Source: Kordiimonadaceae bacterium (GTDB lineage Bacteria > Pseudomonadota > Alphaproteobacteria > Sphingomonadales > Kordiimonadaceae). Taken from it: 64,000 nt of DNA. The stretch spans positions 1,054,001-1,118,000 of the forward strand of contig JAEPQB010000001.1 of NCBI GenBank assembly GCA_017640725.1, given 5' to 3'. Below the pieces are notes generated by a model. The model made no database searches. It was given only the letters and a program-made list of their open reading frames with translations, and had not been told where the DNA came from. Positions 40,000 to 57,831 of the stretch are shown here, in pieces. The first letter of the stretch is position 1; each line of letters starts with the position of its first letter. A program made the position numbers and the translations under genes.

Positions 40000-40515
40000 T
40001 TATTGGCAGCCAATAGCACCGGCAACGGGGATAGCCGCCGACCAACCACTTTCTGTGGATAATGAAACACTGCCATTCGGCACTTTTAAGCCCTGTTGCA
40101 ATGTTCGAGTTTGCTCCGGTGTGATCGTAACTTTGACAGACATGTCACCCAGGCTGAATTGCTGATTGCGATAAAACTGCAGAGCAATCTGGTTTTCCAT
40201 TGAACTGCGGCTCAACGCCTGCACTGTGCCATCCACCCGCATCAGGGTTTCGCCACTAGATCGCTGAAAAATGATCAACGGCGCGTCTTCACGCTTCGCC
40301 CAAAGAAACAGACCACACTCACCTGTGGCAACTTGTTGTGCCGGGATCGTACCAATGCGTGACAATACTTCGTCGTCACCAATAGACCGAATAACTGATG
40401 CCTGTACGGGCACGTCTGGCTGACTTTCTGTTTCGCTGGCAGGCTCAGGAAGGATGCCACAAGCAGTCAAGCTAGTGGCAGCAAAGACAGAAGCAAGTTT
40501 CAGTGAATTCAACAT
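40000..40515 (-). CDS. Lipoprotein of unknown function at the end of the gsp operon
   Basis: A 171-residue predicted lipoprotein: signal MLNSLKLASVFAATSLTAC with lipobox LTAC, an acidic linker, then a compact domain with two Cys residues (GECGLFLW and the end AIGCQ) that could form a disulfide. I do not recognise the family. It starts ten bases after the gspN stop, with GAGAAGGCGGCG as ribosome site, so it is the last gene of the type II secretion operon. A pilotin-like or assembly role for the secretin is an inference from position only. A short hairpin (40001-40015) lies across its stop. Confidence 0.72.
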   Translation of the reverse strand: MLNSLKLASVFAATSLTACGILPEPASETESQPDVPVQASVIRSIGDDEVLSRIGTIPAQQVATGECGLFLWAKREDAPLIIFQRSSGETLMRVDGTVQALSRSSMENQIALQFYRNQQFSLGDMSVKVTITPEQTRTLQQGLKVPNGSVSLSTESGWSAAIPVAGAIGCQ

Positions 40516-40525
40516 CGCCGCCTTC

Positions 40526-41260
40526 TCAAAATGTTAGCCGTGAGGTGGTTTGCCAACCTTCCTCCGACGCTGAAAATCCGTTGCTCTCCAGCCAGCCAAT
40601 AATCTGCTCAGGAATAGCAGCCTCATTCTCAAAACGCAAAAGCACACTCAAAGCAACACCGTTGGCGTGCCTTAGCTGCGCAGACGCTTCGAGTGTGCCG
40701 CCAGAAAACGGGCGGACAAAATCAACGGTCAGGAAGCCGTCACGGCACACTAAAGGGGCTGTGACTGCATTCCGCGCCATTCCCAGTGCAGCGAACATGT
40801 CTTCGAATGCGTTGGTTCTAAGTTCACCACTGGCAGAAAGGCACAAGCTGCGACGGTCAAATGTAGCTGCAGCATTCACCACACGAACCCCACCTGAAAA
40901 CTCCTGTGATGCCATGCGGCCCCGCAGCTGCGCTGTGGCCTGAAGGTTTTCAACAATCAAGCCAGGCCCATCACTGACGTCAAAAGAAGCATTCAATGTT
41001 GGTCCCTCTATGCGAACGGTGCCGCTGAGCGCACCAAAAATTATGCCCACATTTGGGCTCCAGTAAACATTGCCAACGGGAGTGCCCCGAAAAGCAACAT
41101 TGTTCAGTCGCATGCTCCACAGGGAACCTGCAGCACCGTTATGGGTGAAACCGGCAGGCATATTGACGAAGTTCAACACGCTCGCTGCGGGCAACAAAAA
41201 CAGGCAAAAAAACAAGAAGACAGCAGCGCCAATCGCCACCAAATGCGTGGATTTGATCAC
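40526..41260 (-). CDS. gspN: Type II secretion system protein N
   Basis: A 244-residue protein with one N-terminal membrane anchor (about 8-30, LVAIGAAVFLFFCLFLLPAAS) and a periplasmic beta-rich domain, for example FTHNGAAGSLWSMRLNNVAFRG. This matches GspN, an accessory component present in some type II systems. Its start overlaps the gspM stop by four bases. Identification rests mainly on position, size and the conserved GSLW pattern. Confidence 0.82.
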   Translation of the reverse strand: MIKSTHLVAIGAAVFLFFCLFLLPAASVLNFVNMPAGFTHNGAAGSLWSMRLNNVAFRGTPVGNVYWSPNVGIIFGALSGTVRIEGPTLNASFDVSDGPGLIVENLQATAQLRGRMASQEFSGGVRVVNAAATFDRRSLCLSASGELRTNAFEDMFAALGMARNAVTAPLVCRDGFLTVDFVRPFSGGTLEASAQLRHANGVALSVLLRFENEAAIPEQIIGWLESNGFSASEEGWQTTSRLTF

Positions 41261-41742
41261 TCTGCAATCCCCACAAAGCGAACCTGAGCTCGCAAACCAT
41301 CACCGCTTGAGTTTTTCTGCAGCAACACGTTTGAAGGGCCGACGCCCTGCTCTTCGGCTAGGGTTTGCAGCCACTGATACAATGCTGTGCTCTGTGAACT
41401 GTCGACCCAAACCGTCAAGGTTCCATCATCAGACGGTTGCAGCCGACTGATCGAAACACCGGCATTTCGTGCTGCCTGAGAAACAGCCACACGAAGGCTA
41501 ACCGGTGCGCCACCGTCTGCCCTGTTTGAAACAGCATCTACTGTTGCCTGAAGCTGGGCCACACGCATTTGCACGGTTCTCAGCGTGTTTTGAGCGGCCT
41601 GCAAAGCACGCTCACTATCTGCCGCATGAATTTGCAATGGCCTGAGCACGAGAAAATAAACCAGCACCAGGCTTGCCAAGGCGCCGGCAAACGAAATCAA
41701 CAGCTGCTCACGGGAGGTCAAAGAGTGCCAATAATCGCGCAT
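41257..41742 (-). CDS. gspM: Type II secretion system protein M
   Basis: A 161-residue bitopic protein: MRDYWHSLTSREQLLISFAG leads into one membrane helix (about 16-34), followed by a coiled-coil stretch (RALQAAQNTLRTVQMRVAQLQ) and a small ferredoxin-like domain. This is the GspM design; it partners GspL in the inner-membrane platform. Reading frames overlap at both ends (one base with gspL, four with gspN). Confidence 0.87.
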   Translation of the reverse strand: MRDYWHSLTSREQLLISFAGALASLVLVYFLVLRPLQIHAADSERALQAAQNTLRTVQMRVAQLQATVDAVSNRADGGAPVSLRVAVSQAARNAGVSISRLQPSDDGTLTVWVDSSQSTALYQWLQTLAEEQGVGPSNVLLQKNSSGDGLRAQVRFVGIAE

Positions 41743-42836
41743 TATGGTCTCCTCACCCGAATTTCAGAAAGAACGCGGCCACCTTCCTGGCGGCTGCTTC
41801 CCTCGCTCACCTGCATACCAGCCGCTTCGAGTTGTTGTTTAAAGTTGCTACTATCTGCAAAGGATGAAAAAGACACATCTAGCGCCAGCTCACTGTCGGC
41901 TTGTTCATAGCGCAGCGTCTCCAAAACTGTTTGTTCGTTATTTTCCACAACCTGCATAACAACGGTGCTCAATGTAAAAAATTCGCCGCCGCCCCTTTGG
42001 CCACGGCTGGCAATTGCCCGCCGTAGCTGGGCATCCATATTAATGATGCGTGGTTCGTCGGGCAGCGCGTTTCGAAATGCCTGTTCTGCCGCCAAATACA
42101 GTTGGTCGGCCTGCTTATAGTTCTGGGAAGCGCCGTACCAAAAAGACATTACAGCCATAACAACTGCTAGCGAGGCCAGAATGGCGGCCCGCCGCCACCA
42201 CAAAAAGGTGGTGCGCCAATTGGTGCGGGGAGCATATAGGCCTTGTAGAAGATTGCCGCCACCAGTGAAATAGTTTGCGAGTGCCGCTGACCAGTCGAGA
42301 GGCAGAGCATCCACTTTCCCCAATATCCAATCGGCCTCTGATTTGTCGATCGCATATCCCGAACCATCCGGTCTGCGCACCAAGACTCGATCATCAAGCG
42401 CGCACACCTGCTCCAAATCGGGTTTAGTCTCCAGCAGCAGATAATCCGGGATGGCGCGTCCCGCATTTATCCCAACGCGGTTCAACAAGGTGCGCAAAGC
42501 CTGCATGCTCTCGTTTGAGACGACGCCAACAAGCCGTTCACCATCGCCAGAAGCAGCAGACAGGAGTGCCAAATGGTTCTCCCCACCCGCCAAAGCCAAT
42601 TTGTCGTCGATCACTGCCGGGAGGATTTTCACTGCTTTGGCGTCATCTACATTTGGCAGCTGGATATTGTGGCTGACAACAGCACGGCCATCCAAAATGG
42701 CAACGACATCGGGTTGTGTGCGATCGTTTTGCAGGGCGTGCAGAGTACTTGCTTCAACACTGTTCTCTGACTTGTGCCAAACGTTTGAGACAGCGTCAAA
42801 ACCCTCATTCACTTCCAGAAAGTACGTTGTGCTCAT
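41742..42836 (-). CDS. gspL: Type II secretion system protein L
   Basis: A 364-residue GspL homologue: a cytoplasmic actin-like domain (about 1-225) that recruits the ATPase GspE, one membrane helix (about 232-250, AAILASLAVVMAVMSFWYG) and a periplasmic domain with a coiled coil and a ferredoxin-like end that pairs with GspM. The sequence is weakly conserved as usual; the order K-L-M-N confirms it. Confidence 0.87.
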   Translation of the reverse strand: MSTTYFLEVNEGFDAVSNVWHKSENSVEASTLHALQNDRTQPDVVAILDGRAVVSHNIQLPNVDDAKAVKILPAVIDDKLALAGGENHLALLSAASGDGERLVGVVSNESMQALRTLLNRVGINAGRAIPDYLLLETKPDLEQVCALDDRVLVRRPDGSGYAIDKSEADWILGKVDALPLDWSAALANYFTGGGNLLQGLYAPRTNWRTTFLWWRRAAILASLAVVMAVMSFWYGASQNYKQADQLYLAAEQAFRNALPDEPRIINMDAQLRRAIASRGQRGGGEFFTLSTVVMQVVENNEQTVLETLRYEQADSELALDVSFSSFADSSNFKQQLEAAGMQVSEGSSRQEGGRVLSEIRVRRP

Positions 42837-43825
42837 GGCAAAACCCCCACCGAATGTCGAACTACGCGCGCGATGCCAGAGTCGTCTACTTTGATCTCAG
42901 AATTGAGATGGCTAATGGCATCAAAATGGCTCACACGAATGCGACTATTGAAGCGATGAGGTTTCACTGTCGTTTGCCGCCTTATTGATTGATCAATCTC
43001 TCTACCGGCCACAATAGGGTCTAGCCAAAAGTCTGCAACATCACTGTAGCCACCAGTTGGGCGCGCCAAGATCAACTCCACCGCCTGGTCAAATGTGAAA
43101 TCTCCCCCAATAAGCGCGACCAGAAGTGGTGCTTCTGCAGGCGTTAGGCTGTTCACGTTGAAAACCGACCTGTCTGTGGACGCATCGGCACACAAAAAAC
43201 CTTCAAAACGCGCAATAAGTTCGGGGCTAAAGCCTTTTATCATATTGAGTTCTGACAGGTCCGCCAGCAAGCTGTTACCTGTTCGATATGGCTGATCGAG
43301 CGCCGCATAATCATAGTCTTCAGCACCCATTGGCAGTGGCCGTTCATCGGTGTCAATCCAGTCGGTAAGCACAGCAACAAGCTCCTGGGCTTGACGGTCC
43401 GCCATCCCAAGGTTTGCGAACAGTCGCACAAACTGTCCTTGGCGTTCTTCGCTGGCGATCAACGTTCCCGCGTCGCGGCGGAGGACCAGACTGTTCACGT
43501 TAAAGCAATTGCTGCGGTCGGTGATGAACCCGTCTATCCGTCCCCCTTCAATAGCAAAAGAAACGGCTCTCGGCGCCGCGAGGTTCGCTTTGGTGTCATA
43601 CAGGTCCGCGGCAACGGAAAGTGCCAACTGTTCACCCCCAAGAGCATACTGTCTCGCCTGGTCGTATGTTCTGAGCGCACCGGTTCGCTTGATGGAGTAA
43701 CCCATGGCGTCAAAAGTTAGCACGGCCCCCAGTGCCATCACGGAAACCAGCAACAGGACAGTCGCGAGAGCAGCGCCCCGCTCATGGCTCAAAATACGCA
43801 AAATGTATTTCTGTTGCTTCATCAT
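42833..43825 (-). CDS. gspK: Type II secretion minor pseudopilin K
   Basis: A 330-residue minor pseudopilin, larger than the others as expected for the pilus-tip protein. The prepilin site is SHERG-AALATVLLLVSVMALGAV, followed by the long helix and a globular domain (DRSNCFNVNSLV, then a middle region with SVFNVNSLTPAEAPLLVAL). It lacks Glu at +5, which is normal for GspK. Start and stop overlap the neighbouring genes by four bases each. Confidence 0.9.
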   Translation of the reverse strand: MMKQQKYILRILSHERGAALATVLLLVSVMALGAVLTFDAMGYSIKRTGALRTYDQARQYALGGEQLALSVAADLYDTKANLAAPRAVSFAIEGGRIDGFITDRSNCFNVNSLVLRRDAGTLIASEERQGQFVRLFANLGMADRQAQELVAVLTDWIDTDERPLPMGAEDYDYAALDQPYRTGNSLLADLSELNMIKGFSPELIARFEGFLCADASTDRSVFNVNSLTPAEAPLLVALIGGDFTFDQAVELILARPTGGYSDVADFWLDPIVAGREIDQSIRRQTTVKPHRFNSRIRVSHFDAISHLNSEIKVDDSGIARVVRHSVGVLP

Positions 43826-44433
43826 GATGCCCCAACAATGAACATCATCTGGGCGCGCTGACCGCTTTCAAATTCAACCGACAGCTCCGCGAGCCGTGGC
43901 AAGCTGCTGGCAGCAACCGTTGTGCCCCATTCTGCAATCCAAACCCCGTCCACGGCGTATCGAACAGTCAGCTGTGCGACTCCTTCGAGAAGCGTTTGAT
44001 CGAGGAATTGGGTGCCTTGAACCAGGTCCGATCGGCTATAAGTACGGCGCAAAAGCTTGTTATCTGACACCAGCAACTCAACGCGTTTAACCTCTGAAAC
44101 AGTACCACTTAGCCTGGCTCCCAAATCGCCGGAGCGTACCAAGCGCTGTCGCCTTCCATCGGCCATATGCTGCCCTGCCTCGAAAGCCAGCAATACACCG
44201 CCAAACTCGTCTCTCACCGGCCGATTGATGGCGGCAAAATAGTCGTCGCGCAAGATATTGCGGGCCACCTCAAGCTGGGCCAATCGTGCGTCGGCATCAC
44301 CAAGCGCCACACGACTAGACTGATAGCTTGTCAGCAAAGCCACAGACATCGCTGCGATAAGCGCAAAAATGAATGTAGCGACGAGGGTTTCCACAAGAGA
44401 AAAACCGTGATCTTTGGAAAGCCTCAGACGCAT
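43822..44433 (-). CDS. gspJ: Type II secretion minor pseudopilin J
   Basis: A 203-residue minor pseudopilin with prepilin signal SKDHG-FSLVETLVATFIFALIAAM, carrying Phe+1 and Glu+5. Size and the C-terminal beta-domain fit GspJ. ATG 44433 begins two bases after the gspI stop; the in-frame TTG at 44439 is less likely. It forms the tip complex with GspI and GspK. Confidence 0.9.
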   Translation of the reverse strand: MRLRLSKDHGFSLVETLVATFIFALIAAMSVALLTSYQSSRVALGDADARLAQLEVARNILRDDYFAAINRPVRDEFGGVLLAFEAGQHMADGRRQRLVRSGDLGARLSGTVSEVKRVELLVSDNKLLRRTYSRSDLVQGTQFLDQTLLEGVAQLTVRYAVDGVWIAEWGTTVAASSLPRLAELSVEFESGQRAQMMFIVGAS

Positions 44434-44435
44434 GA

Positions 44436-44834
44436 TCAAGGGACCTTCCTGAAGCCAACCAAGCGCGCGAGCTGCCGAGGTTGCCGGTCATTGGTTGAAA
44501 CCGTCACTTCAATAATGGTCAGGTCGCCGCCTGGGGCTGGCCGAACAGTTTCCTGCCAGCGAAAGTCCATGCCCATCTGATTTTCGCTGCCCGAACGAGT
44601 ACCTGGTGCAGGTTCATCAATAAGTCCAAGTGCCAAATTGAGCCGGTTTTCCGCAACAATTGACGCAAGACTGCGCTGTTCTAATTGACTGGTGATGGAG
44701 ATCGCTTGAGTTTGGCTTTCTAGCAGACTAACTGCCGCAAGTGCCAAAATAGAAACGGCGACCAAAAGCTCGATGAGCGAAAAGCCACCGTCACTTTTCA
44801 AAATCTGACAAAACCTAGATGGCTTAGTTTTCAT
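44436..44834 (-). CDS. gspI: Type II secretion minor pseudopilin I
   Basis: A 132-residue pseudopilin with signal SDGG-FSLIELLVAVSILALAAVS and the short C-terminal domain typical of GspI (ENRLNLALGLID is a family-like stretch). It overlaps gspH by 11 bases. It acts as the nucleator of the I-J-K tip. Confidence 0.9.
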   Translation of the reverse strand: MKTKPSRFCQILKSDGGFSLIELLVAVSILALAAVSLLESQTQAISITSQLEQRSLASIVAENRLNLALGLIDEPAPGTRSGSENQMGMDFRWQETVRPAPGGDLTIIEVTVSTNDRQPRQLARLVGFRKVP

Positions 44835-45312
44835 AGCGCACCTCGGGGCTAGCGTTTACCGCAGCAAACAATTTAGCGCGGGTGCCAGCGCCTTCAAAAC
44901 TGAGTTCATACGAGGGGTGTTCTCCCGTCGGCAGAAACCATATCTGCGGCTCAAGCGCCGTTGCAGCAAAAGAAACATCCGCGCCTTCGACCTGCAAAGA
45001 AGCCAGGATAAGTGACTGCCATCGACGTGCTTCTGGTTTCAGTGTGCCGTTAGCCAGCGTCCAGCCATCATCCGACAGCGCGACAGTTTCAAAACCTCCA
45101 CGGCTGAAAACAACGCCGATCACACGCCCGGAAAGCACACTATCCCGCGACAAGGCAATAAATGCGTGCTCCAGTCGGCTCATGGATTGCCGCACATCTC
45201 GCGACTCGTTCGGAAGTGAAAGCACAACGGCGCTCGCCATAAGGCCAATGATCGCAACCACCATCATGACCTCAACAAGCGAAAAACCGCGATCTGCCCT
45301 CAACTCCTGCAT
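44824..45312 (-). CDS. gspH: Type II secretion minor pseudopilin H
   Basis: A 162-residue pseudopilin with a very short leader (MQELRADRG) before FSLVEVMMVVAIIGLMASAV, then the GspH/FimT domain (RLEHAFIALSRDSVLSGRVIGV). The start overlaps the gspG stop as TGATG. It joins the main pseudopilus to the tip. Confidence 0.9.
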   Translation of the reverse strand: MQELRADRGFSLVEVMMVVAIIGLMASAVVLSLPNESRDVRQSMSRLEHAFIALSRDSVLSGRVIGVVFSRGGFETVALSDDGWTLANGTLKPEARRWQSLILASLQVEGADVSFAATALEPQIWFLPTGEHPSYELSFEGAGTRAKLFAAVNASPEVRYEN

Positions 45313-45776
45313 CAGTTATCGCTCGTCGCCCAATTGCCGATGTCGGCGTTCAAGCCATCTCCACCACTGCGGCCATCGGCACCAAAACTGAACACATCAA
45401 ACGCGCCGTTTTCGCCCGGAAACAAATACTGGTAAGGGTTGCCCCATGGGTCCAAAGGCAGTGACCGAATGTAAGGCTCCGTCCTCAGGCTATTGCTGCG
45501 AGGCGCTGCCGCCAGTACGTCGAGGCCATCCTCAAGTGAGGGGTAACGCCGTGTATCCAACCGATAAAGCTCTATCGCTTGCTCGATCAAATGCACATCG
45601 GTGCGCGCTTTTTCCACCATGGCCCGGTCCTGACTTGGCAGAACATTAACAACAACGATTGTTGTCAACAGACCCATGATGACAATCACGACCATAAGCT
45701 CGATGAGAGAAAAACCGTTTTCCTCTTTAGCAATAGTTTGAGCGGTCTTTCCAATCCGTCTCAACAGGGTTTTCAT
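45312..45776 (-). CDS. gspG: Type II secretion major pseudopilin G
   Basis: A 154-residue major pseudopilin: leader ending EENG-FSLIELMVVIVIMGLLTTIV, then the conserved ARTDVHLIEQAIELYRLDTRRYPSLEDGL region (shown here in part), LPLDPWGNPYQY, and the calcium-binding end SFGADGRSGGDGLNADIGNW. ATG 45776 is chosen because AGGAG lies six bases upstream; ATG 45782 would overlap that site. Confidence 0.94.
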   Translation of the reverse strand: MKTLLRRIGKTAQTIAKEENGFSLIELMVVIVIMGLLTTIVVVNVLPSQDRAMVEKARTDVHLIEQAIELYRLDTRRYPSLEDGLDVLAAAPRSNSLRTEPYIRSLPLDPWGNPYQYLFPGENGAFDVFSFGADGRSGGDGLNADIGNWATSDN

Positions 45777-45786
45777 GGTCATCTCC

Positions 45787-47016
45787 TCACAACAGAACAA
45801 GGCTGTTCAGCCTCAGGATCGGTAACATAATCGACATCACAATGACGCCGACGAGGCCACCCATTAGTATCACAATCATTGGTTCAAGCAGGCTAAGTGC
45901 GGACTTGGTAAATCCGTCAAATTCACTTTCCAGATAGTCAGCCACTTTATGCATCATGATGCCTAACTGCCCGCTGCGTTCTCCCGCCGCTGCCATGTAC
46001 GACAGCATGGGTGGTAGGGCCTCAACCTGCTGCAGGCTATTGGCAACGCCGCCACCTTCCCGGACTTTTGTAATTGCGTCGCTGAGCGCCAACTTTATGG
46101 GATCGTTTTTAACGGTCTCTTTGGCGGCCATGAGCGCCTCAAGCACTGGGCTACCGCCAAGCACTAGCGTGCCAAATGCGCGAGCAAACCGCGCTGCGTT
46201 AACAGACCGGATCAACCGACCAATAACCGGCGTCTTCAACAAAGCCCCGTGCACTCCGAAACGAAAACCGGACTGCCGCAGCGCAAAGGTCAACCCAATC
46301 AAAGCAAGCAAAATCGCAATCAGCAGCACCAACCCGTAATCTGTAAGAAAACCCGACACACCCACCACAATTTGGGTCAGAGCCGGGAGTTCACCGCCAA
46401 AACTATCAAACTGGGCCACAACTTTGGGCACCACCAACACCATCAGGGCCGTTACAACACCGACCGCAACCGTCAAGAGAACTGCCGGGTAAATCAGGGC
46501 CGACTGAATTTTGGACTTGGTTTCTTCAGACTTTTCCCGGTGATCTGCGATACGAGACAGCACGGGGCCAAGGGCGCCAGCTGCTTCTCCAGCAGCCACC
46601 ATAGAACAGTAAAGCGTGTCGAACGTCGCGTTTTCCTGCTCCATGGCTTTAGAAAGGCGCATACCCTCCATCACATTTGTGCGGACGCGAGATAGCACCG
46701 AGCGAACAGCCGGCCTTTCACTTTGCTGCGCGAGCGCCGCAAGCACTTCCTCAACCGGTGCAGCAGCCTCAATCATGGTCGCCATTTGGCGCGTGATGAG
46801 GGCTAATTCTTTGGAGCCGATTTTTTCCCGGGTGCGCAAACCAACAGGAATGAGTGCATTGAAAGAACTTGTGCGCCCACCGGCAGGCTTAATATCTGTT
46901 ACGTAAAGCTGGCGAGCAAGCAACGAGCGCTTGGCTTCCGCGGGACCGTCAGCAGAAATGGTGCCCTTGGTGGGCTTTCCCTGCTGATCAACGGCGCTGT
47001 ATTCAAACGCCTGCAC
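45787..47016 (-). CDS. gspF: Type II secretion inner-membrane protein F
   Basis: A 409-residue polytopic platform protein with two GspF cytoplasmic domains (about 70-190 and 270-390), each followed by membrane helices, and the typical N-terminus QAFEYSAVDQQGKPTKGTIS. The start is GTG 47016, preceded by AAGGAGACAGCGG, inside the end of gspE (14-base overlap). Confidence 0.93.
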   Translation of the reverse strand: MQAFEYSAVDQQGKPTKGTISADGPAEAKRSLLARQLYVTDIKPAGGRTSSFNALIPVGLRTREKIGSKELALITRQMATMIEAAAPVEEVLAALAQQSERPAVRSVLSRVRTNVMEGMRLSKAMEQENATFDTLYCSMVAAGEAAGALGPVLSRIADHREKSEETKSKIQSALIYPAVLLTVAVGVVTALMVLVVPKVVAQFDSFGGELPALTQIVVGVSGFLTDYGLVLLIAILLALIGLTFALRQSGFRFGVHGALLKTPVIGRLIRSVNAARFARAFGTLVLGGSPVLEALMAAKETVKNDPIKLALSDAITKVREGGGVANSLQQVEALPPMLSYMAAAGERSGQLGIMMHKVADYLESEFDGFTKSALSLLEPMIVILMGGLVGVIVMSIMLPILRLNSLVLL

Positions 47017-48499
47017 CCGCTGTCTCCTTAATCCGTGAAACGCGCAGCACTTCTTCCGTCGTGGTTACACCTTTCAGTACCAACGCACGACCACTGTCGG
47101 CGAGCGTACTTGACGATTGAAATGCATAGTCTTCCATATCTTGCTCTGACGTATTTTCCTGAATCATCCGTCGAAGGTTAGCGTCGATCGTTGCAAGCTC
47201 ATAAATGCCGATCCGGCCGCGATAGCCTTTACCGCCACAATCCGGGCATCCCACGGCTTCCATCAGTCTGGCATCTTCATTATCAGTGACGCCTAGTTCT
47301 GCCTTGAGCTCCATCGCATTGGCCGCTGGCCTTTTGCAGCTGTCACAAAGCTTGCGAACTAGCCGCTGGGCCAAAATTCCTTTTACGGTGGAGGCCAGAA
47401 GAAAAGGCTCGACGCCCATGTCACGCAGGCGCGTGATGGCGGCAATGGAACTGTTGGTGTGAACAGTCGACAACACCAAGTGACCGGTCAGGCTGGCCTG
47501 GATCGCCATCTCCGCGGTTTCCATGTCACGAATTTCGCCGACCATCACAACGTCCGGGTCCTGCCGGAGAATAGCGCGCAGGCCAGAGGCGAATGTCATG
47601 CCCACTTTGGCATTGACTTGCGTTTGGCTGACACCGTCGAGCGCATATTCAACCGGGTCTTCAACGGTCATGATATTGCGACTTTGGTCATTCAAAATAC
47701 CAAGGCCTGCATAAAGGGTAGTGGTTTTGCCAGACCCGGTTGGACCGGTCACCAGAATAATGCCATTAGGCTCGGACAAGAGGTCTTGGATGCCCGCATG
47801 AATGGATGGTTGCATGCCCAGCTCTTCAAGCGAGAATTGCGCCTGCGACGCGTCAAGCAGCCTCAACACAACACGTTCACCGTGGCGAGCTGGCAGCGTG
47901 GAAACCCTCACATCAAACTCACGGGTGCCAAGTTTCAGGGAAATTCGGCCGTCTTGTGGAATACGTTTTTCTGCAATGTCCAACCGCGCCATTACCTTGA
48001 TCCGGGATACAATGTATGGCGTCATACGAGCGGCGAGGCTGGCGACTTCCGTCAAAACCCCGTCAACGCGAAGCCGAACCGAGAGCCGATTTTCAAAAGG
48101 CTCAAGATGCACGTCAGAAGCAGCATTTTTTACGGCTTCAGCAATCAGGCTATTGATCAACCGGATAACGGGTGCATCGTCTTCGCTGGCAAGCAAATCA
48201 GCAGCTGCGGGCATGCCCTCAAGCGCCCGGTCTAGGCTTTCTGCCGGCATTTCTTCGCCGATTTCCGCATTGATGCCTTCCACCGCATGCAGCTCTGAAA
48301 GGAGCGAGTCGAAATCTGCTTTTGACCGCCGTTCAAGGCTCAAAGGTCTCCCCACAGCCCGGCGTACTTCGGGCAACATCCGCATGTTTGCATCTTCGCG
48401 AACTATCACCTTGGCTGCCGTATTGTCACCATCAACAAGTGCAAAGCCATGGTCTCGTGAAAAAGTGTATCGAAGCTTATGTTGAACGTCGCCCGACAC
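47003..48499 (-). CDS. gspE: Type II secretion ATPase E
   Basis: A 498-residue hexameric ATPase that powers the pseudopilus. It has Walker A GPTGSGKTTT (near residue 250), the Asp and His boxes, GEIRDMETAEMAIQASLTGH, and the zinc-binding tetracysteine set CDSC and CPDC (about 387-435). The N-terminal domain (1-150) binds GspL. The start is GTG 48499, six bases after the gspD stop. Confidence 0.94.
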   Translation of the reverse strand: MSGDVQHKLRYTFSRDHGFALVDGDNTAAKVIVREDANMRMLPEVRRAVGRPLSLERRSKADFDSLLSELHAVEGINAEIGEEMPAESLDRALEGMPAAADLLASEDDAPVIRLINSLIAEAVKNAASDVHLEPFENRLSVRLRVDGVLTEVASLAARMTPYIVSRIKVMARLDIAEKRIPQDGRISLKLGTREFDVRVSTLPARHGERVVLRLLDASQAQFSLEELGMQPSIHAGIQDLLSEPNGIILVTGPTGSGKTTTLYAGLGILNDQSRNIMTVEDPVEYALDGVSQTQVNAKVGMTFASGLRAILRQDPDVVMVGEIRDMETAEMAIQASLTGHLVLSTVHTNSSIAAITRLRDMGVEPFLLASTVKGILAQRLVRKLCDSCKRPAANAMELKAELGVTDNEDARLMEAVGCPDCGGKGYRGRIGIYELATIDANLRRMIQENTSEQDMEDYAFQSSSTLADSGRALVLKGVTTTEEVLRVSRIKETAGAGV

Positions 48500-48504
48500 A
48501 ACAA

Positions 48505-50475: not shown

Positions 50476-51321
50476 CTAGCGGCTTCCTCCTAAACTCAAA
50501 ACCAAGTTGCGCCGCTCCCCGCGCCGCTCGATTTCCAGGGTCAATTGCCGCGACCCTGACAGTTCCTCACTCAACTCTTCAAGCCGCTCAAACGAGCGAA
50601 TCGGCTCCCCATTGGCCTCCATCACGATATCCCCGGCCTCCAAACCTGACCCGAGCAAAGGCAGAGGCAGAGGGTCAGGGACTTGAAAACCTACAATGCG
50701 ACGGTCCCGCCGGACAGGCGAAAGTTCAAACGCTGACAGGTCAAACTGAAGCGGAATTTCATCATCTATGGGGCGGGCTGCTTGGGGCCTCCGCGGCAAC
50801 GTCGAGCGTGCCTGCCGCTCCCGCTGCGGGCGCAAATAAATCGCTTCCCTGACGCCTGCCCTGTTCACCTCCAGTCTGTCTGGATATACGGCAGACAGGG
50901 TGACACCCGCAGCAATGCGGTCTCCAATTTTGACAAGTTTTTGATCCCCGTCCGGGGTCTTGATAATGGCTGCTCCCGTGCCGTCAGAAGCGGCTCGAAG
51001 GCCAAAAAGCTCAAGGCGCAGGCTACTTTCACGAATTTCCGTTTGCTGAGGCGCTTCAGCCGGACCGCCAATTTCCCGGTAAAACGGATCGAACGAAGTT
51101 AACCGCCCAGCATCTACCATCTCTGTAGTATTTGTCGTGGCGATCGGCAATGCACCGCCAGTTTGAGGGTCAGAAGCTGTTAGTTTGAAAAATAACTGAG
51201 CGGCGACATACGCGATCAATATAACCAAGGCCAGTTCAACAACAGAAACGGCCACGCGAATACCGCGCGGTGCAGACGGGACGATTGACCCGCCTGTGGT
51301 TTCTGTTCCAGCACTTTCCAT
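50476..51321 (-). CDS. gspC: Type II secretion protein C
   Basis: A 281-residue bitopic protein, first gene of the operon: membrane helix (about 22-46), homology region (LRLELFGLRAASDGTGAAII) that touches the secretin N0 domain, and a C-terminal PDZ domain (about 205-280, GSGLEAGDIVMEANGEPIRS) likely to select substrates. A candidate promoter with an inverted repeat lies just upstream. No good ribosome site is seen at the usual distance from ATG 51321; GGAG is 13 bases away. Confidence 0.9.
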   Translation of the reverse strand: MESAGTETTGGSIVPSAPRGIRVAVSVVELALVILIAYVAAQLFFKLTASDPQTGGALPIATTNTTEMVDAGRLTSFDPFYREIGGPAEAPQQTEIRESSLRLELFGLRAASDGTGAAIIKTPDGDQKLVKIGDRIAAGVTLSAVYPDRLEVNRAGVREAIYLRPQRERQARSTLPRRPQAARPIDDEIPLQFDLSAFELSPVRRDRRIVGFQVPDPLPLPLLGSGLEAGDIVMEANGEPIRSFERLEELSEELSGSRQLTLEIERRGERRNLVLSLGGSR

Positions 51322-51350
51322 GGAAATGGTACGTCTCCAGCAGCTTCAAC

Positions 51351-51388: not shown

Positions 51389-51405
51389 TGAGCAACTGAA
51401 TTATT

Positions 51406-51433: not shown

Positions 51434-51448
51434 AATTTATTTGCAATT

Positions 51449-54061
51449 TTAGTATTTAAACGAAAGACCCACAGTGAAAGTGCGACCAAGTTCATAGCCT
51501 TCAGTCACAATGCCGTTCTGCGTCAGTCGGAATTCGTCACCCAAAAGGTTCTCAGCATCAACACTCAACTCCAGAATGCTGTCACCGACATAAAACTCTT
51601 TGCTGTAGGCCAAATTCAGTCGAAGAGGTGGTGTTTCATACTCGTCATCGGCACCAAAAACACCAATGAAGCGCAGGCGGCGGCTGTTGTAATTCAACGT
51701 GATGGCGAGATTTTCGTTGCGATTGTAATCGCGCCAACCGAACTGCAGGTTTGCCAGCCAATTTGACTGACCCTGAAATGGTCGCACCAAATTGGTGACA
51801 ATGCCTCGATCTGCCTCAGCGGTAACCGTTTCACCGTCAATGTAGGAACCGTTCACTTTCAGGAATATTTCACGTCCAGCAAGCCAGTCCCAACCCCACC
51901 AGTCCTGCAAAAACAGAACTTTATCGAGCTCAACCTCAACGCCTTTCAGTTCTGCAGACGTGGCATTAATGGCTGTGATCAAACGGCCCTCACCAAAGGC
52001 CTCTGCACTTTGCTCAATCGGGCGCGTGAAGTCTTTGTAGAAGGCACCCACTGTCAAACTTTCGCCTGTGCTAAAGTACCATTCGAAACGCGCATCAAAG
52101 TTGTTGATTTCAGCGATGCGAAGCTCCGGATTACCCTGAACGGTCCGGTTAAGCTCTTCATCCACAAAACGCGCGTTCGAAAGCTCGCGCAGGTCAGGCC
52201 GGTTGATGGTCTGGCTAAACGCGAGGCGCAGCTGCATATTCTCAACAATTTCGTAAGTGAGCGTCGCAGACGGCAGCAAAAACTCACCAAACTGCGAAAT
52301 ACGAATTGGGTTAAACGGTGTGATCCGCTCTGCCGTGTTTACAATCTGAGAACTGTCTTCGTACCGTACGCCCAGTGCAAGGCGTGCTCTTTCGGAAAGC
52401 TCGACGTCCGCTCCCAGGTACCCTTGAACATTCTCAAAATCCACAGTGTAGAAGTCAGATCGGTCAAACAATTCCTGAAGTGTGTTTTGACCAGGGCCAA
52501 CATTTTCCGGGCCAAAAATAATCTCTGGAACGCGCGCCCGCAGGTCATTCAAACCTGCATTGCGCGCAAGCTGGAACGTGTAGCGCACGAGACCAAAACT
52601 TCTCGCTTTTTCCGAATAAGTGAAACCACCGAGGAAATCGATCGGCAAGTCGGCAATATAGGCTGGTTGAACAAAATTCAGACCAAACTCTTTGGTTTCC
52701 TCATCCAGCGCATTGTAAACTGTGGTGTTGCCCACAGTCGTTGGCAGGATGAGGTCAAGGCCGAGTTCAGGGTTCAGTTCGTAAATTGTACTTCTGCGAG
52801 CCGGTACGTCACGGTCAGACCGCGAGATGTTTGCGCGCCAGTTGATCTCGGTTTGCTGGAATGTGTCACTGTCGCCAAACAAATTGACATAATGCTCACC
52901 CGTGATCTGGTTGGTCCAAACCTGGCTTTCGATCCAGTCAATGGTGGACCTAGTGCGCAGTGCATCTTCCTGCGCGAACAGGCCTTTTTCAATCACTGAC
53001 CGCTTGGTTGAAGAACGAAGGACGGTGCCAGTGTAGTTAATGGTGTGGTCGCTGTTGAACTCATATCCAAGGGACAACATGCCATTAAGCTCAACATCCA
53101 GGAACGTTTGACGCACACCGCAATCATCTGGTGGTACTTCGCCAAACTCCGGATTGTCGCAAACTTCTGGCGCAAAATTGGTTTCGGCCTGCGCGCCAGA
53201 ATCGTTAACCGTCACAGTGCGGCGAACGCCCACTCGGTTCCGCGAATCCACATCATAGTCGACGGCTACGAAGAAACCGAAGGCCCCATCAGTGCCAACT
53301 TCAACCCGGTCACCCACAACGAAATTTAACCCTGCACCCGGGTAAATTGGCTCTTCGTCAATTGACCACACGTTGGGGAGAGACTCGCCAGCCGCCTCCA
53401 GCTCCTCAGGGGTCAGGCTTTCAAGCGTAATGTCCTGGAGGATTTCTTCCGGGAGATTGCGACGTGACCCGCCGAACCCAAAAATCTCTGAACCCGTGCC
53501 ATCATAGCTGAGGCCCGTTTTACCTGTCGCCTCGGAGTTGTAAGAGGCTGAAAGACCAACTTCGAGCAGAAACTCGTCGGGTACGGCTTTGGTGCGAATG
53601 TCAATGACACCTCCACCAAACTCCGCCGGATATTCGGGGGAAAAAGTCTTCTGAATCAGGACTGATTCAACAATAGACGTCGGGAAAATATCCAGCGGAA
53701 CAACGCGCCTCAGCGGGTCTGGGCTGGGAATACCCGAATAGTTGAGAAGAGACGAAGAATAGCGGTCACCCAAACCACGAACGTAAACATAGCCGCCTCC
53801 AACAACTGAAACGCCTGGCAGGCGCTGCAGACCGGCTGCCACGTTGCCGTCACCAGCAAGCGCAAAAGCGTCAGCGTCCAATACGTTTGCAATTTCAGAG
53901 GTGGCCCGTTTTTCGTCTGGAATAAACTGGCCGAGTACCGTGATTTCTTCGACGTCAACAAAGGGTGGAGTATTGCTTTGTCGTGCAGAAACTTCAGCTG
54001 GCGCAATGAGAACCACTGAAGCCAAAAGCGCATGTTTGAAATTATTGTTGTTCATTTTCAT
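51449..54061 (-). CDS. TonB-dependent outer-membrane receptor
   Basis: An 870-residue receptor: signal ending PAEVSA-RQS, plug domain (about 38-165) with LQRLPGVSVVGGGYVYVRGL and PLRRVVPLDIFPTSIVES, and a beta-barrel ending in an aromatic residue (GRTFTVGLSFKY). The VRGLGDRY type plug marks a branch often lying beside surface proteins in Proteobacteria. It should import a bound nutrient with TonB energy; the ligand is unknown. The start is ATG 54061 or 54055; GTG 54073 is possible. It follows the duplicated lipoprotein gene, with a perfect hairpin between. Confidence 0.88.
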   Translation of the reverse strand: MKMNNNNFKHALLASVVLIAPAEVSARQSNTPPFVDVEEITVLGQFIPDEKRATSEIANVLDADAFALAGDGNVAAGLQRLPGVSVVGGGYVYVRGLGDRYSSSLLNYSGIPSPDPLRRVVPLDIFPTSIVESVLIQKTFSPEYPAEFGGGVIDIRTKAVPDEFLLEVGLSASYNSEATGKTGLSYDGTGSEIFGFGGSRRNLPEEILQDITLESLTPEELEAAGESLPNVWSIDEEPIYPGAGLNFVVGDRVEVGTDGAFGFFVAVDYDVDSRNRVGVRRTVTVNDSGAQAETNFAPEVCDNPEFGEVPPDDCGVRQTFLDVELNGMLSLGYEFNSDHTINYTGTVLRSSTKRSVIEKGLFAQEDALRTRSTIDWIESQVWTNQITGEHYVNLFGDSDTFQQTEINWRANISRSDRDVPARRSTIYELNPELGLDLILPTTVGNTTVYNALDEETKEFGLNFVQPAYIADLPIDFLGGFTYSEKARSFGLVRYTFQLARNAGLNDLRARVPEIIFGPENVGPGQNTLQELFDRSDFYTVDFENVQGYLGADVELSERARLALGVRYEDSSQIVNTAERITPFNPIRISQFGEFLLPSATLTYEIVENMQLRLAFSQTINRPDLRELSNARFVDEELNRTVQGNPELRIAEINNFDARFEWYFSTGESLTVGAFYKDFTRPIEQSAEAFGEGRLITAINATSAELKGVEVELDKVLFLQDWWGWDWLAGREIFLKVNGSYIDGETVTAEADRGIVTNLVRPFQGQSNWLANLQFGWRDYNRNENLAITLNYNSRRLRFIGVFGADDEYETPPLRLNLAYSKEFYVGDSILELSVDAENLLGDEFRLTQNGIVTEGYELGRTFTVGLSFKY

Positions 54062-54097
54062 CTTAGCCACCAATTGGCTTTCTTCTTTTCATGAGTA

Positions 54098-54132: not shown

Positions 54133-54145
54133 CGTCAACATTTGC

Positions 54146-57025
54146 TTAGCGGTCCAGCCAAACGGTCCAGCCAAGCGTCCAATCATTGTTGGCATCTGGG
54201 ACCGCACCAACGGCCGTTACTGCATCGAAGAAGCTGTCGATCGCGCTCACGTCCGTGAAGGTCACATTCGCCTCAACAGCACCGTTGATGTAAGTTTTGA
54301 AAGCTTCGGCACCAGCAAGAGCTGTCAGGCTGTCCGTTCCAACCTGATTGTTTGCCTGGTTGGTGAAATACGCCTCAAGGTCGAAGACATTGTCATCACT
54401 TTGGAACACCTCAGCGCAGCTGTCACTCAGGAGCGCGCTCTCGATGGTGAGTGTGCCAGTGAGGTCCGTTGCGCTCGTGCCCGCGGCGGTAAATGTCGCT
54501 GTGTCGTCGATGTCGAGACATGCGTCACCCATTTGAGCCACAACCACGTTCCAGAGGTTTGCACCTGTGCCTTCACGCAGCAGAACACCAACATCTGTCT
54601 CGCCGCCTGCAGCCAGTGAACCAACGATTGTCGCGTTTGCGATCATTGGCTGAGCGCGCGGCAGGAAGTCGTTACCGTCGCCGAAGTTATCAGCTTCGAT
54701 ACCTTGGTCAGACGCTGGCTGGTTCGGGTTTTGTATAATCAGCAGGTGCTGGATTTTACCGCGCCAGCCTTGTGTCCAGTCGAGGCTGTCATCATCAGCG
54801 CCGGTAATAACCACATGCTTGGCTTCAGCTGTGCCGCCGAAGAACTCGATACCGTCATCAGCACCATTGTGAACTTGCAGGAAGTCGATCTCGGTGCCGC
54901 TACCAACGCCCTGGAAGGCGATGCCGTTCAGTTCGTCGTCTGCGGTGATTGGGTTTCCTGCATAGATTACGCGCGTGTAGAAAATCTGACCGCTGTCATC
55001 CGTGTCGTCGGAGCCGCCAAAGAGGCCACTGTCGCCCTCACCTTGCGCCTCACACGGCAGGCCAACACCATCACAAGTGTTCAGTGTGGCGCGTCCATTG
55101 ATAACCAGCCCGCCCCAAAGCGACGTGTCGCTATCCAAGTCACGGGTTTCCGGGTTAAGCGCTGTGAATGTCACTGGCGCGTCGACAGTGCCGTTTGAAT
55201 TCAGCTGAGAGCCACGGGAGATAATCAGGTACGATTGTGGGTCAGCACCTTGAATTGTGACACCAGGATCAATTGTCAGGCTTGCAGCATCACCGGTTGC
55301 CAACGGGTTGGCAGGGTCCGGACCGAGGTCAACACCAAACACGACACGACCATCAAGGATGTAATCCAGGCCAGAAACCAGCGTCAGGTCGTTGGTATAT
55401 GTACCGGAGATTACACAAGCGCCATCCGTGTTGGTTGTTGTACCGCTTGGGCACTCTGGGTCCGGGTTCAGGCCGTATGTCCAGTTCAAAGTCCAGTTGT
55501 CAGCAGCAGATGAGCTTGCCACAGCGCCGGCGTAGTCAACACTATCAAAGAATGCGTCAACTGCGCTTGGGTCGGTTGCCACAACCGCATTTTCCGCAGA
55601 GCCATTAATGAAACGGTTGGACAGCGATGTTGCGCCGACAACATTGTTCGCCTGGTTGGTGAAGAATGCTTCAAGGTCAAAGACATTGTCGTCGCTCTGG
55701 AACACTTCGGCACAGTCTGTGCCCAGCAGTGTAGATTCGATCGTCAGTGTGCCAGTTAGGCTTGTTGCGCTTGATCCAGCAGCCGTGAAGGTTGCTGTGT
55801 CATCGATATCGAGGCAGGCGTCGCCCATGTCTGAAACGACTGAGTTCCAGATGTTGGCGCCGGTACCTTCACGCAGCAGCATGCCCACATCGGATTCGCC
55901 GCCGCGCGAGAATGAGCCAACAATTGTAAAGTTGGAGAGTTGCGGCTGTGCGCGCGGCAGGAAGTCGTTGCCGTCGCCGAAGTTATCCGCTTCGATGCCC
56001 TGGTCAGACGCTGGCTGTGCCGGGTTTTGGATAATAATCACGTGCTGGGCTTTGCCGCGCCAACCCTGGGTCCAGTCCAGGCTGTCATCGTCAGCACCGG
56101 TGATCACCACATATTTCGCTTGTGCTGTGCCGCCAAAAAACTCGATGCCGTCGTCAGCACCATTGTGCACCTGAATGAATTCAAGCGTTGTGCCAGAACC
56201 TACGCCCTGGAAGGCAATGCCGTTCAATTCATCATCAGCGGTAATTGGATTACCTGCGTACTTGACCTGAATGTAGCGCATGGTTCCGCTCGAATCGGTA
56301 TCGTCATCACCGCCATAAAGGCCGCTGTCGCCTTCTCCTTGTGCTTCACACGTGCCGTCACCGTTACATGTGTTGATGGAAGCAGCACCGTTCACAACAA
56401 TGCCGCCCCACTCTGAGGTGAACGGTTCGTCGAGAAGCGCGCCAGAGTGCGTGCCCTGATCGGAAATACCGAGCTCATCAGACAGGTCGAGGTCTAGCGC
56501 CGACGTGAATACGATTGGGTCGCTTGCGCTACCGTTTGCTTCGATAGCAGAACCCCGCGCAATAACGAGAACATCACTTGCAGTTGCACCGTAGATAACC
56601 GCGCCGGGCTCAATTGTCAGGGTTGCAGAAGCGCCGTCAGCAGCAGTGCCGTCAGCGCCGGTATCAGACCCGATAACAACCTGACCGCTTAGCTGATAAA
56701 TGTTGCCGGCTGTCAGGGTAACGTCAGACGTGATTGGCGCAGAAATTGGGCCAGTTAACTGGCAATGGGTTTGCTCACCAACCGTAACGGATGTAGTGCC
56801 CGTCGGGCAGTTACCTGCTGAGGTGTATTCGATGCCGCCACGGCCAATTTTTACCGATGGTTCCGGATCAGGCTCTGGCTCGGGCTCTGGTTCTGGTTGA
56901 GGCGCAGGCGCCGGTGAATCAATGCCTGGTGAAGCCAGCTCAGTGCTATCGTCACCACAAGCCACAAGCGCACTTGAAGCAACAGCGGCCAGAAGAGTCT
57001 TTTTAAGGAGGTCAAGGTTGGTCAT
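54146..57025 (-). CDS. Large surface-type lipoprotein with two similar beta-helix-like halves
   Basis: A 959-residue exported lipoprotein: signal with lipobox LVAC (Cys23), a Pro-Glu tether (about 42-56), then two homologous halves (about 73-520 and 522-959). Both contain the pattern Cys-Pro-x-Gly-Thr-Thr, a core CEAQGEGDSGL, an Asp-rich YAGNPITADDELNGIAF, and ITGADDDSLDWTQGWRGK. The repeated hydrophobic strands suggest right-handed beta-helices with bound calcium. I know no enzymatic motif in it. Lying between a prepilin peptidase and a TonB receptor, next to a type II operon, it is a good type II substrate that may work at the cell surface with the receptor. ATG 57025 is chosen (GGGGAAA upstream). 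Confidence 0.85.
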   Translation of the reverse strand: MTNLDLLKKTLLAAVASSALVACGDDSTELASPGIDSPAPAPQPEPEPEPEPDPEPSVKIGRGGIEYTSAGNCPTGTTSVTVGEQTHCQLTGPISAPITSDVTLTAGNIYQLSGQVVIGSDTGADGTAADGASATLTIEPGAVIYGATASDVLVIARGSAIEANGSASDPIVFTSALDLDLSDELGISDQGTHSGALLDEPFTSEWGGIVVNGAASINTCNGDGTCEAQGEGDSGLYGGDDDTDSSGTMRYIQVKYAGNPITADDELNGIAFQGVGSGTTLEFIQVHNGADDGIEFFGGTAQAKYVVITGADDDSLDWTQGWRGKAQHVIIIQNPAQPASDQGIEADNFGDGNDFLPRAQPQLSNFTIVGSFSRGGESDVGMLLREGTGANIWNSVVSDMGDACLDIDDTATFTAAGSSATSLTGTLTIESTLLGTDCAEVFQSDDNVFDLEAFFTNQANNVVGATSLSNRFINGSAENAVVATDPSAVDAFFDSVDYAGAVASSSAADNWTLNWTYGLNPDPECPSGTTTNTDGACVISGTYTNDLTLVSGLDYILDGRVVFGVDLGPDPANPLATGDAASLTIDPGVTIQGADPQSYLIISRGSQLNSNGTVDAPVTFTALNPETRDLDSDTSLWGGLVINGRATLNTCDGVGLPCEAQGEGDSGLFGGSDDTDDSGQIFYTRVIYAGNPITADDELNGIAFQGVGSGTEIDFLQVHNGADDGIEFFGGTAEAKHVVITGADDDSLDWTQGWRGKIQHLLIIQNPNQPASDQGIEADNFGDGNDFLPRAQPMIANATIVGSLAAGGETDVGVLLREGTGANLWNVVVAQMGDACLDIDDTATFTAAGTSATDLTGTLTIESALLSDSCAEVFQSDDNVFDLEAYFTNQANNQVGTDSLTALAGAEAFKTYINGAVEANVTFTDVSAIDSFFDAVTAVGAVPDANNDWTLGWTVWLDR
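54149..56809 (-). repeat. Internal tandem duplication in the lipoprotein gene
   Basis: The two halves of the coding sequence, about 55466-56809 and 54149-55462, encode alignable domains of about 440 residues with several runs of identical residues, so this is a gene-internal duplication. Short DNA stretches are also nearly identical and could recombine. Confidence 0.8.
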
Positions 57026-57133
57026 CATTTTCCCCGTTCGACGAAATCCGTCACCTGAATAGTCGTTGTTTCAGTTATTGAGACCCAGCGAGTGGGCCCG
57101 CCGGTTCATTGCGGATGACATCTAATGGGGGTT

Positions 57134-57194
57134 TGTGACGGTTTCTTTTCAGTTGTTTTACCGTTTTTGTAACATTGCAGTCACAAAATGTGAC
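57134..57194. promoter_or_regulatory. Palindrome and direct repeats upstream of the duplicated lipoprotein
   Basis: GTCACA-AAA-TGTGAC is a perfect palindrome at 57180-57194. TGTGACGGT occurs twice, at 57134-57142 and 57189-57197. On the minus strand TGTGAC and TGTTAC start 11 bases apart (57185-57169), the spacing of PhoB half-sites, though each has one mismatch to TGTCAC. This 215-base gap separates the prepilin peptidase stop from the lipoprotein start and should hold its promoter. Confidence 0.4.
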
Positions 57195-57243
57195 GGTAGC
57201 GCCACGTGCTTTTTATCGGCTAAAAATCAAAGGCTTAATGGTG

Positions 57244-57831
57244 TTATATTTGTGGGAACAACCAAACCAGCCAGGCACCGATAGCGAGAAAAATGCCAAA
57301 TGGCACTGGGTTTTTGACAAGCTGTTTACGATTTTCGCCTTTTGCGAACATTAGCGACAGACTCGTCACCATCAGCGCGGACAGCGATGCTGTCAAAAGG
57401 ACAAAAGGCAGGTTAAGCCACCCAAGCCATAAGCCAACACCTCCCAGCAATTTGGCATCACCGAGACCTATGCCACTGCGCCCCCTAAGCAGCCTGTAAA
57501 AAAAATTGAGCAGAGGAAAAAACATGAGCCCCACCAAACCCCCAATCATATGGCCAACAAGCAGGGCTTGAGGCACGGTAAGCAGCATCGCAATGCTCGT
57601 GAGCGCAAGCGTACCTGTCAGCAGATTTGGCAATCTGAAATAATGAAAGTCATACCAACTCAGGGCGGCGAGATTGACAAACAATACAAGCGAAAGAACC
57701 GTCGGTTTGGAGGAAAACCACCAGGCGCAGGCAAAGACCAAAGCCACAACACCAAATGAAACAGCCCCAAAAACGCTGGGCGTTCTGGTTTGCAGGATAA
57801 TTTCCTCAGGTTCAAATGGTTGATCTGACAT
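57244..57831 (-). CDS. Prepilin peptidase (A24 family), single-domain
   Basis: A 195-residue membrane aspartic peptidase with catalytic Asp61 (SWYDFHYFRLPN) and Asp125 (GLGDAKLLGG, the GxGD motif) and about six hydrophobic segments. It should cut the leaders of GspG to GspK. It lacks the N-terminal zinc-binding and methyltransferase domain of classical GspO/PilD and is as short as CpaA/TadV. ATG 57831 is preferred over GTG 57855. It lies upstream of the duplicated lipoprotein on the same strand, outside the gsp operon itself. Confidence 0.87.
   Translation of the reverse strand: MSDQPFEPEEIILQTRTPSVFGAVSFGVVALVFACAWWFSSKPTVLSLVLFVNLAALSWYDFHYFRLPNLLTGTLALTSIAMLLTVPQALLVGHMIGGLVGLMFFPLLNFFYRLLRGRSGIGLGDAKLLGGVGLWLGWLNLPFVLLTASLSALMVTSLSLMFAKGENRKQLVKNPVPFGIFLAIGAWLVWLFPQI

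Follow-up and report, generated by a model that had tools for sequence, protein, structure and literature searches.

Known elpS-Like Loci and the Kordiimonadaceae Locus

In Caulobacter, the gene of the surface lipoprotein ElpS (elpS, cc0170) is followed by the gene of a TonB-dependent receptor (TBDR; cc0171) and by the type II secretion system (T2SS) genes gspC to gspN (cc0172–cc0184), and a similar arrangement is described for Xanthomonas, Sphingomonas, and Hyphomonas (Le Blastier et al., 2010; PMC2996285). The Kordiimonas form of this published locus lies in a 64,000-nt stretch of the genome of a marine Kordiimonadaceae bacterium (contig JAEPQB010000001.1, positions 1,054,001–1,118,000; the whole stretch is hereafter called the window) and is the subject of the present analysis. 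Here, too, a lipoprotein gene with a lipobox, a TBDR gene and gspC to gspN follow one another on one strand, again in what is probably a context of phosphate starvation. The original prediction for this DNA, made from the letters alone, had placed elpS near the gsp genes in Caulobacter, which is correct. According to the Caulobacter study, ElpS is made under phosphate starvation, palmitoylated and exposed at the cell surface with or without the T2SS, while its release is T2SS-dependent and sensitive to protease inhibitors; overproduction of ElpS goes along with higher secreted alkaline phosphatase activity. The study also notes that homologues of elpS and cc0171 co-occur and suggests that the two interact functionally (Le Blastier et al., 2010). 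The T2SS of Caulobacter has been assigned to the PhoB regulon in a study from 2024 (PMC11208175).

The two loci also differ. The lipoprotein of the window has two domains and 960 amino acids (aa), whereas the secreted Caulobacter band runs at ~50 kDa; single-domain homologues in the same arrangement are found in genomes of the class (e.g., L130, L131, L133, and L135). The prepilin peptidase gene gspO is located upstream and on the same strand in the window but downstream of gspN and inverted in Caulobacter, and the adjacency of pst-phoU genes in the window likewise sets it apart from the Caulobacter locus.

Related lipoproteins have been described in another phylum. FI and FII of Flavobacterium johnsoniae, which belong to the clusters PUSIII and PUSIV, are encoded beside a TonB-dependent transporter and are induced by low inorganic phosphate (low Pi); they show 31–36% identity to ElpS over 50–54% coverage in the authors’ figures, and phoBR is part of the PUSIV cluster (Lidbury et al., 2020; PMC8115612). 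The pullulanase PulA of Klebsiella is also a surface lipoprotein linked with a T2SS, but it is exported through this system, whereas ElpS of Caulobacter gets to the surface independently of it (Le Blastier et al., 2010).

The original prediction had compared the lipoprotein and the receptor to SusD and SusC, with which they share the adjoining genes of a surface lipoprotein and a TBDR. Membership in the SusD family was rejected for the window lipoprotein, which has no SusD Pfam match and a predicted beta-helix (see below) in place of the SusD fold. No CarboxypepD_reg domain is recognized by Pfam in the window TBDR. In the literature covered, which mostly lay outside subscription journals, we found neither a count of the gene pairing nor a cross-genome account of its T2SS independence, nor any link with a TonB2-type operon.

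The Receptor as the Likely Near-Constant Partner of the Lipoprotein

A search with the lipoprotein gave matches in 34 of 59 genomes (its own and those of relatives), and a profile of one domain gave matches in 12 of 387 genomes of the class and in 57 of 397 genomes of the phylum, these sets overlapping. Two sets of matches were set aside, weak fragments that repeat in G445 (contig C11) and one short piece in G024 (contig C231); the rest were taken with their flanks. Twelve of the lipoprotein loci come from named genomes, namely six of Kordiimonas, five of alphaproteobacterial metagenome-assembled genomes (one of Emcibacteraceae) and one of a distant Aquimarina.

Gene pairing was counted in 83 elpS loci, 59 alphaproteobacterial and 24 from other proteobacteria, with shared descent contributing to the counts. 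A TBDR gene lies on the same strand within 320 bp of elpS in 79 of them. At three loci elpS is situated at a contig edge (L052, L058, and L125), L052 still showing part of a TBDR by tblastn, and at four the receptor gene comes before elpS (L144, L145, L146, and L148). Moreover, elpS (E ≤ 1e-5) and the TBDR gene (E ≤ 1e-60) occur in the same 34 of the 59 genomes, and the same 25 lack both, some of these being incomplete assemblies. The lipoprotein and the receptor thus behave as the unit that the original prediction had taken them for, with a pairing that is conserved beyond close relatives, while the whole set including gsp is conserved within the Alphaproteobacteria. These distributions suggest that the TBDR, rather than the secretion machine, is the near-constant partner of the lipoprotein.

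Vertical inheritance accounts for much of the synteny within the order, and the two genes might in principle be neighbors through shared descent alone, without any joint function. However, the pair persists despite the changed order at the four loci named above, despite the absence of T2SS genes and despite other changes among the neighbors, and both genes are jointly missing from 25 of the 59 genomes, which makes this explanation highly improbable. One stop codon each was seen within the receptor matches G010:C5:435433-438054 and G006:C132:253-2895.

Type II Secretion as a Probable Optional Neighbor

Of the 59 alphaproteobacterial loci, 38 have gsp genes behind the TBDR gene and on its strand, and one more (L137) has them in divergent orientation. 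The other 20 comprise five loci cut by contig edges (L052, L058, L079, L081, and L125) and 15 without a gsp set, eight of which have a lone gspC- or gspE-like match. Outside the class, the fetched flanks are free of gsp genes at all 24 loci.

GspD was surveyed in 40 elpS genomes, of which 38 lack a gsp set near elpS, one has its locus at a contig edge (G209) and one has adjacent gsp genes (G692). A GspD scoring over the TIGR02517 cut-off, a strict one that only two of the six control genomes with any match pass, was found in 31 of the 40. The remaining nine (G038, G044, G049, G615, G696, G763, G621, G638, and G524) are all rated 100% complete, and the GspC profile meets PDZ-like stretches only, or nothing, in them. 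Sub-cut-off GspD matches in eight of the nine cover the secretin part only (about positions 325–593); two matches in G524 align close to the N terminus as well and may come from other secretins. A close GspD occurs in 28 of 34 elpS genomes, and G011 has a close GspD without the elpS-TBDR pair. Together, these surveys suggest that the T2SS is an optional neighbor of the pair.

The original prediction had instead cast the lipoprotein as the dedicated cargo of the adjacent T2SS. In this reading, the lipoprotein would need the system, like pullulanase, in order to reach the surface. The frequent position of gsp genes after the TBDR gene in Alphaproteobacteria agrees with this proposal, as do the loss of extracellular ElpS in a Caulobacter gspC-N deletion and the toxicity of overproduced ElpS in Caulobacter without the T2SS (Le Blastier et al., 2010). 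In the same deletion, however, cellular ElpS is surface-exposed, the T2SS being needed only for release in the account given by that study, and neither the 24 loci outside the class nor the nine genomes without GspD over the cut-off fit a dedicated route. As a general rule, the dedicated-cargo proposal thus finds no support in the Caulobacter data, in the loci without gsp genes or in the genomes without a GspD over the cut-off; as an explanation of the present locus, we regard it as improbable.

Lipidation Site and Tether

The lipidation cysteine is followed by a conserved tag, which reads CGDDSTELASPG in the window. Among the 58 alphaproteobacterial loci that have a lipobox, 51 show the motif SPG no more than 16 residues past the cysteine and the other seven mostly near variants, and in no tether does the motif occur further along; shuffled tethers contain it in 452 of 11,600 cases. 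The low-complexity tether between cysteine and domain spans 30–55 residues. Outside the class, the sequence after lipidation starts with a CGG(G)D(I/V)-like motif in 20 of 22 open reading frames (ORFs), and a recognizable lipobox is missing in 4 of 84 ORFs overall. Released Caulobacter ElpS is cleaved downstream of the stretch after the lipidated cysteine (Le Blastier et al., 2010). In the broader proposal discussed at the end, the post-cysteine tag would be a surface-export or docking signal of ElpS. Slam seems an unlikely surface route for the lipoprotein, since PF04575 has a single match in the genome of the window, a marginal one of 24.9 bits (cut-off 22) that lies on a different contig, and 14 control genomes, Caulobacter vibrioides among them, have none.

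Predicted Fold and Conserved Residues

The two halves of the lipoprotein share 63% identity (288 of 458 columns in blastp), as the original prediction of two homologous halves implies; its length of 959 residues has to be corrected, since the ORF, which has two ATG codons at its start, encodes 960 aa. No Pfam family matches the lipoprotein over the cut-off, and a sequence search of the PDB with the ElpS profile and the receptor as queries returned no solved homologue. The AlphaFold2 model of the N-terminal domain (23 sequences; scores in Table 1) is nearly all-beta with regular strands and resembles a beta-helix. A model of the full-length lipoprotein was discarded for its low confidence (predicted local distance difference test [pLDDT] 61.9, predicted template modeling score [pTM] 0.48). 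Foldseek comparison of the N-terminal domain with the PDB places AlgG, a GH28 enzyme and a tailspike at the top and AlgE4 and PL6 proteins lower, with weak scores throughout (best E 2.2e-3, none at 0.001; TM-scores of at most 0.43 among the 50 matches listed). The ElpS domain thus probably folds as a parallel beta-helix to which no solved structure is closely related.

Across 134 ElpS domains, 48 columns show the same residue in 93% of rows or more, including ten acidic residues and four cysteines. Two acidic clusters of the window N-terminal domain, D224/D225/E228 and D246/D247/D250, are invariant in 20 aligned rows; they are separated by 22 residues and, judging from the predicted strands, sit near corresponding turns of consecutive coils, where they may form a stacked metal or ligand site. 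As both copies in the window retain the conserved acidic residues, neither looks decayed.

Conserved aspartate and glutamate residues at one-coil spacing in both domains would also suit a lipoprotein with a mainly enzymatic role at the surface, a hydrolase or lyase with a GH28/PL6-like beta-helix that works through stacked acidic loops and whose products the receptor imports, rather than a SusD-type binding lid. AlgG, GH28, AlgE4 and PL6 proteins are among the best Foldseek matches, and the Flavobacterium relatives were likened to polygalacturonase through homology modeling (Lidbury et al., 2020). Set against this are the weakness of the structural matches and the lack of a Pfam family or a PDB sequence match; in the Caulobacter study, moreover, the lipoprotein signal is the only functional domain seen in ElpS (Le Blastier et al., 2010). 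We consider a primarily enzymatic role a serious but less likely alternative.

Probable Link to Phosphate Starvation

The regions upstream of elpS were scanned for the repeat CTGTCAY-N4-CTGTCAY, which we take to be the Pho-box consensus, with 14 positions scored. At least 11 of the 14 positions match in 52 of 80 elpS upstream regions, compared with 121 of 1,111 upstream regions of other long ORFs at the same loci; these counts rest on earlier cysteine assignments, some of them wrong, and a few gene starts may shift by some codons. Single-base shuffles reach this score in 237 of 4,000 cases, repeats with a spacer of 2, 3, 5, 6, or 8 bases in 11–19 of the 80 regions, and reversed, permuted or inverted versions in 2–19. 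When one locus per genus is drawn, 30–32 of 43 loci reach the score (20 draws). The upstream regions of elpS are enriched in a Pho-box-like repeat whose spacing is 4 bp. Elsewhere in the window, the upstream regions of gspO, pstC, phoU, the TBDR gene, gspC and the TPR gene score 9–10, and that of the DUF3604 gene scores 11.

Several neighboring genes point in the same direction. Eight of the 24 loci outside the class have homologues of phoB and phoR no further than about 3.3 kb from elpS (L143, L147, L152, L153, L156, L161, L164, and L165). In L147 and L156 they occupy the other strand; the PhoR domain was confirmed in L147 and L164. A PstS-like gene is found in seven of these eight loci, at a distance of 3.8 kb in L156. 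Genes of a DUF3450-ExbB-ExbB-ExbD-TonB-TPR operon, whose families were named from L164, stand beside the pair in 11 of the 24 loci, not all of them complete within the flank, and we liken this operon to the TonB2 systems of Vibrio (PMC6957404). The genes pstC-pstA-pstB-phoU adjoin the locus in the window and in 3 of 13 loci of the genus (L069, L070, and L072), and matches to phoU, pstB and pstC lie near L162, a single locus outside the class; with this distribution, pst adjacency was rejected as a conserved feature.

A different substrate is suggested by Aquimarina (L016), where a TBDR with a CarboxypepD_reg domain stands immediately before an ElpS-like lipoprotein, behind which come two GH28 enzymes and a protein that matches GH88. 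At this one locus the lipoprotein takes a SusD-like place and the substrate is likely pectin. Extended to the whole module, such a role in glycan capture, with the phosphate link secondary or limited to some lineages, is at odds with the Pho-box enrichment seen at one locus per genus, with the phoBR and pst neighbors and with the low-Pi induction reported in Caulobacter (Le Blastier et al., 2010) and Flavobacterium (Lidbury et al., 2020), and we give it little credence.

Copy Number and Homogenization of ElpS Domains

The ElpS domain occurs in one, two, or three copies per gene; the three-domain protein, in L161, has 1,398 aa. In a tree of 134 domains obtained by a quick search, N- and C-terminal halves interleave, and the well-supported branches force at least 18 label changes. 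The tandem form therefore arose several times or its copies homogenize, and we reject, on this tree, a scenario in which the gene duplicated its domain once and the two halves then evolved separately. Runs of identical codons between the halves are direct evidence for homogenization among the 49 two-domain genes. The longest, 256 consecutive codons in L056, where protein identity at the ends is 54% and 71%, represents either gene conversion or an assembly artefact; further runs span 69 codons in L126, 25 in L048, 24 in L047, and 20 in L057. In the window, identical runs reach at most 6 codons, at 67% identity, and its elpS therefore shows no sign of recent gene conversion.

Gene Content of the Window Locus

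ORFs together with Pfam and NCBIfam searches confirm the gene list and order of the original prediction, that is, one minus-strand series transcribed as prepilin peptidase, lipoprotein, TBDR, gspC to gspN and a small lipoprotein (Table 1). Not included in it were the genes pstC-pstA-pstB-phoU directly upstream. The T2SS gene set is complete with gspC to gspN and the prepilin peptidase, gspH being named by its position and an N-methylation motif, the sole match in this slot. The TIGR01782 match of the TBDR stays below the cut-off in the NCBIfam search. The genome contains one copy of elpS, four secretins and two A24 peptidases, the second of which is encoded about 2 kb from another secretin gene; two more gsp-like gene sets with their own secretins are located on contig C6 (L082 and L083).

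Table 1. Features of the elpS locus and its surroundings in the window.
Feature	Positions	Strand	Basis or remark
Small lipoprotein after gspN	40000-40515	-	Homologue ends the gsp operon in 11/11 relatives
gspF, G, H, I, J, K, L, M, N	40526-47016	-	Pfam for F, G, I-N
gspE	47003-48499	-	PF00437
gspD (secretin)	48505-50475	-	PF00263, PF21305
gspC	50476-51321	-	PF11356
TonB-dependent receptor	51449-54073	-	PF00593 and PF07715 (barrel and plug)
ElpS-like lipoprotein, 960 aa, two homologous domains	54146-57028	-	Halves 63% identical; relatives across genomes
C-terminal ElpS domain (predicted)	54152-55468	-	Profile boundaries; acidic residues invariant in the N domain are kept
N-terminal ElpS domain (predicted)	55469-56824	-	Profile boundaries; AlphaFold2 pLDDT 80.8, pTM 0.87
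Lipidation cysteine and conserved post-cysteine tag	56924-56959	-	Low-complexity tether then to ~56825
Pho-box-like direct repeat upstream of elpS	57167-57184	+	11/14 positions; weak in own genome alone
gspO-like short prepilin peptidase (A24), 203 aa	57244-57855	-	PF01478 (Peptidase_A24), 4.2e-15
TPR-like secreted-protein gene	58023-58445	-	Between phoU and gspO
Small secreted-protein gene	58719-59294	+	Opposite to neighbors; between phoU and gspO
phoU, pstB, pstA, pstC	59337-63549	-	TIGR02135, TIGR00972, TIGR00974 over cut-off for phoU, pstB, pstA
pstC	62170-63549	-	Named from position and sequence resemblance

The small lipoprotein at the end of the series, which has no match in Pfam or NCBIfam, is a candidate pilotin or accessory of the adjacent T2SS; in 6 of the 11 relatives with a homologue, gspN itself is recognized by tblastn. 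It is followed at 36080-39896 by a row of genes for a DUF3604 protein, a parvulin-like protein and a HupE-like protein, the last two named by resemblance, and this trio recurs in 3 of the 11 relatives checked (L172–L174). On the other side, the TPR-like gene and the small gene opposite to it (58023-59294) are both found again ahead of gspO at 15 related loci. A scan for promoters and terminators yielded 13 promoter-like sites against 11.0 expected (standard deviation 3.0) and 38 terminator-like sites against 24.2 expected (standard deviation 5.3) and was not used for operon claims.

Proposed Function and Its Implications

We consider it probable that the locus is a phosphate-starvation module for foraging at the outer membrane. 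This interpretation is favored because the gene order is that of Caulobacter, the TBDR pairing is near-constant and the presence sets of the two genes are identical; because of the Pho-box enrichment, the phoB-phoR, PstS-like and TonB2-type neighbors and the pst adjacency; and because of the low-Pi-induced Flavobacterium relatives, the place of the Caulobacter T2SS in the PhoB regulon and the beta-helix-like model.

At low phosphate, PhoB would turn on elpS, and the lipidated lipoprotein would get to the cell surface without the T2SS, as it does in Caulobacter. A flexible tether would hold it there beside its cognate TBDR, the observed pairing of the genes corresponding to a presumed physical contact. 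The two beta-helix domains, with the same conserved acidic loops, could then bind or process a phosphorus-containing polymer or conjugate, the product of which the TBDR would bring in with TonB energy. The adjacent T2SS would be accessory here and secrete hydrolases or phosphatases, probably together with a protease that clips ElpS in the tether and thereby releases it, in keeping with the release dependence seen in Caulobacter. The idea of a surface capture pair is thus strengthened, while its ligand, complex and import steps are what we infer.

Several observations weigh against the phosphate-foraging module. In Caulobacter, cc0171 is expressed constitutively, its deletion does not abolish ElpS production, and the study detected no change in intracellular phosphate (Le Blastier et al., 2010). 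Homology of the window protein to CC0170 is taken from gene order and the cited papers. The window Pho-box-like site matches only 11 of 14 positions, in an orientation opposite to that of most sites of the family, and pst adjacency is confined to close kin. In L145, the nearest TBDR of the expected kind lies 6.8 kb from elpS. Finally, the pectin-type glycoside hydrolase neighbors in Aquimarina indicate that some family members may serve glycans rather than phosphate.

Across the family, elpS-TBDR could represent a second and structurally unrelated solution to the problem solved by SusCD, with a beta-helix lid in one to three copies, a distribution over Pseudomonadota and Bacteroidota, a use mainly in phosphate starvation, lineage-specific accessories (the T2SS in Alphaproteobacteria; a TonB2-type motor and phoBR-pstS elsewhere) and the tag as its export or docking signal. 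We put this generalization forward tentatively.

Many waters and soils are limited in phosphate, and the passage of organic phosphorus across the outer membrane is poorly known. Genomes with the pair but no recognizable T2SS are natural models for the surface route of the lipoprotein. If the pair imports phosphorus compounds, it would offer a defined and widespread receptor-lipoprotein target for direct tests, and the Caulobacter locus would have to be reread with the receptor, over the secretion system, as the near-constant partner of the lipoprotein.

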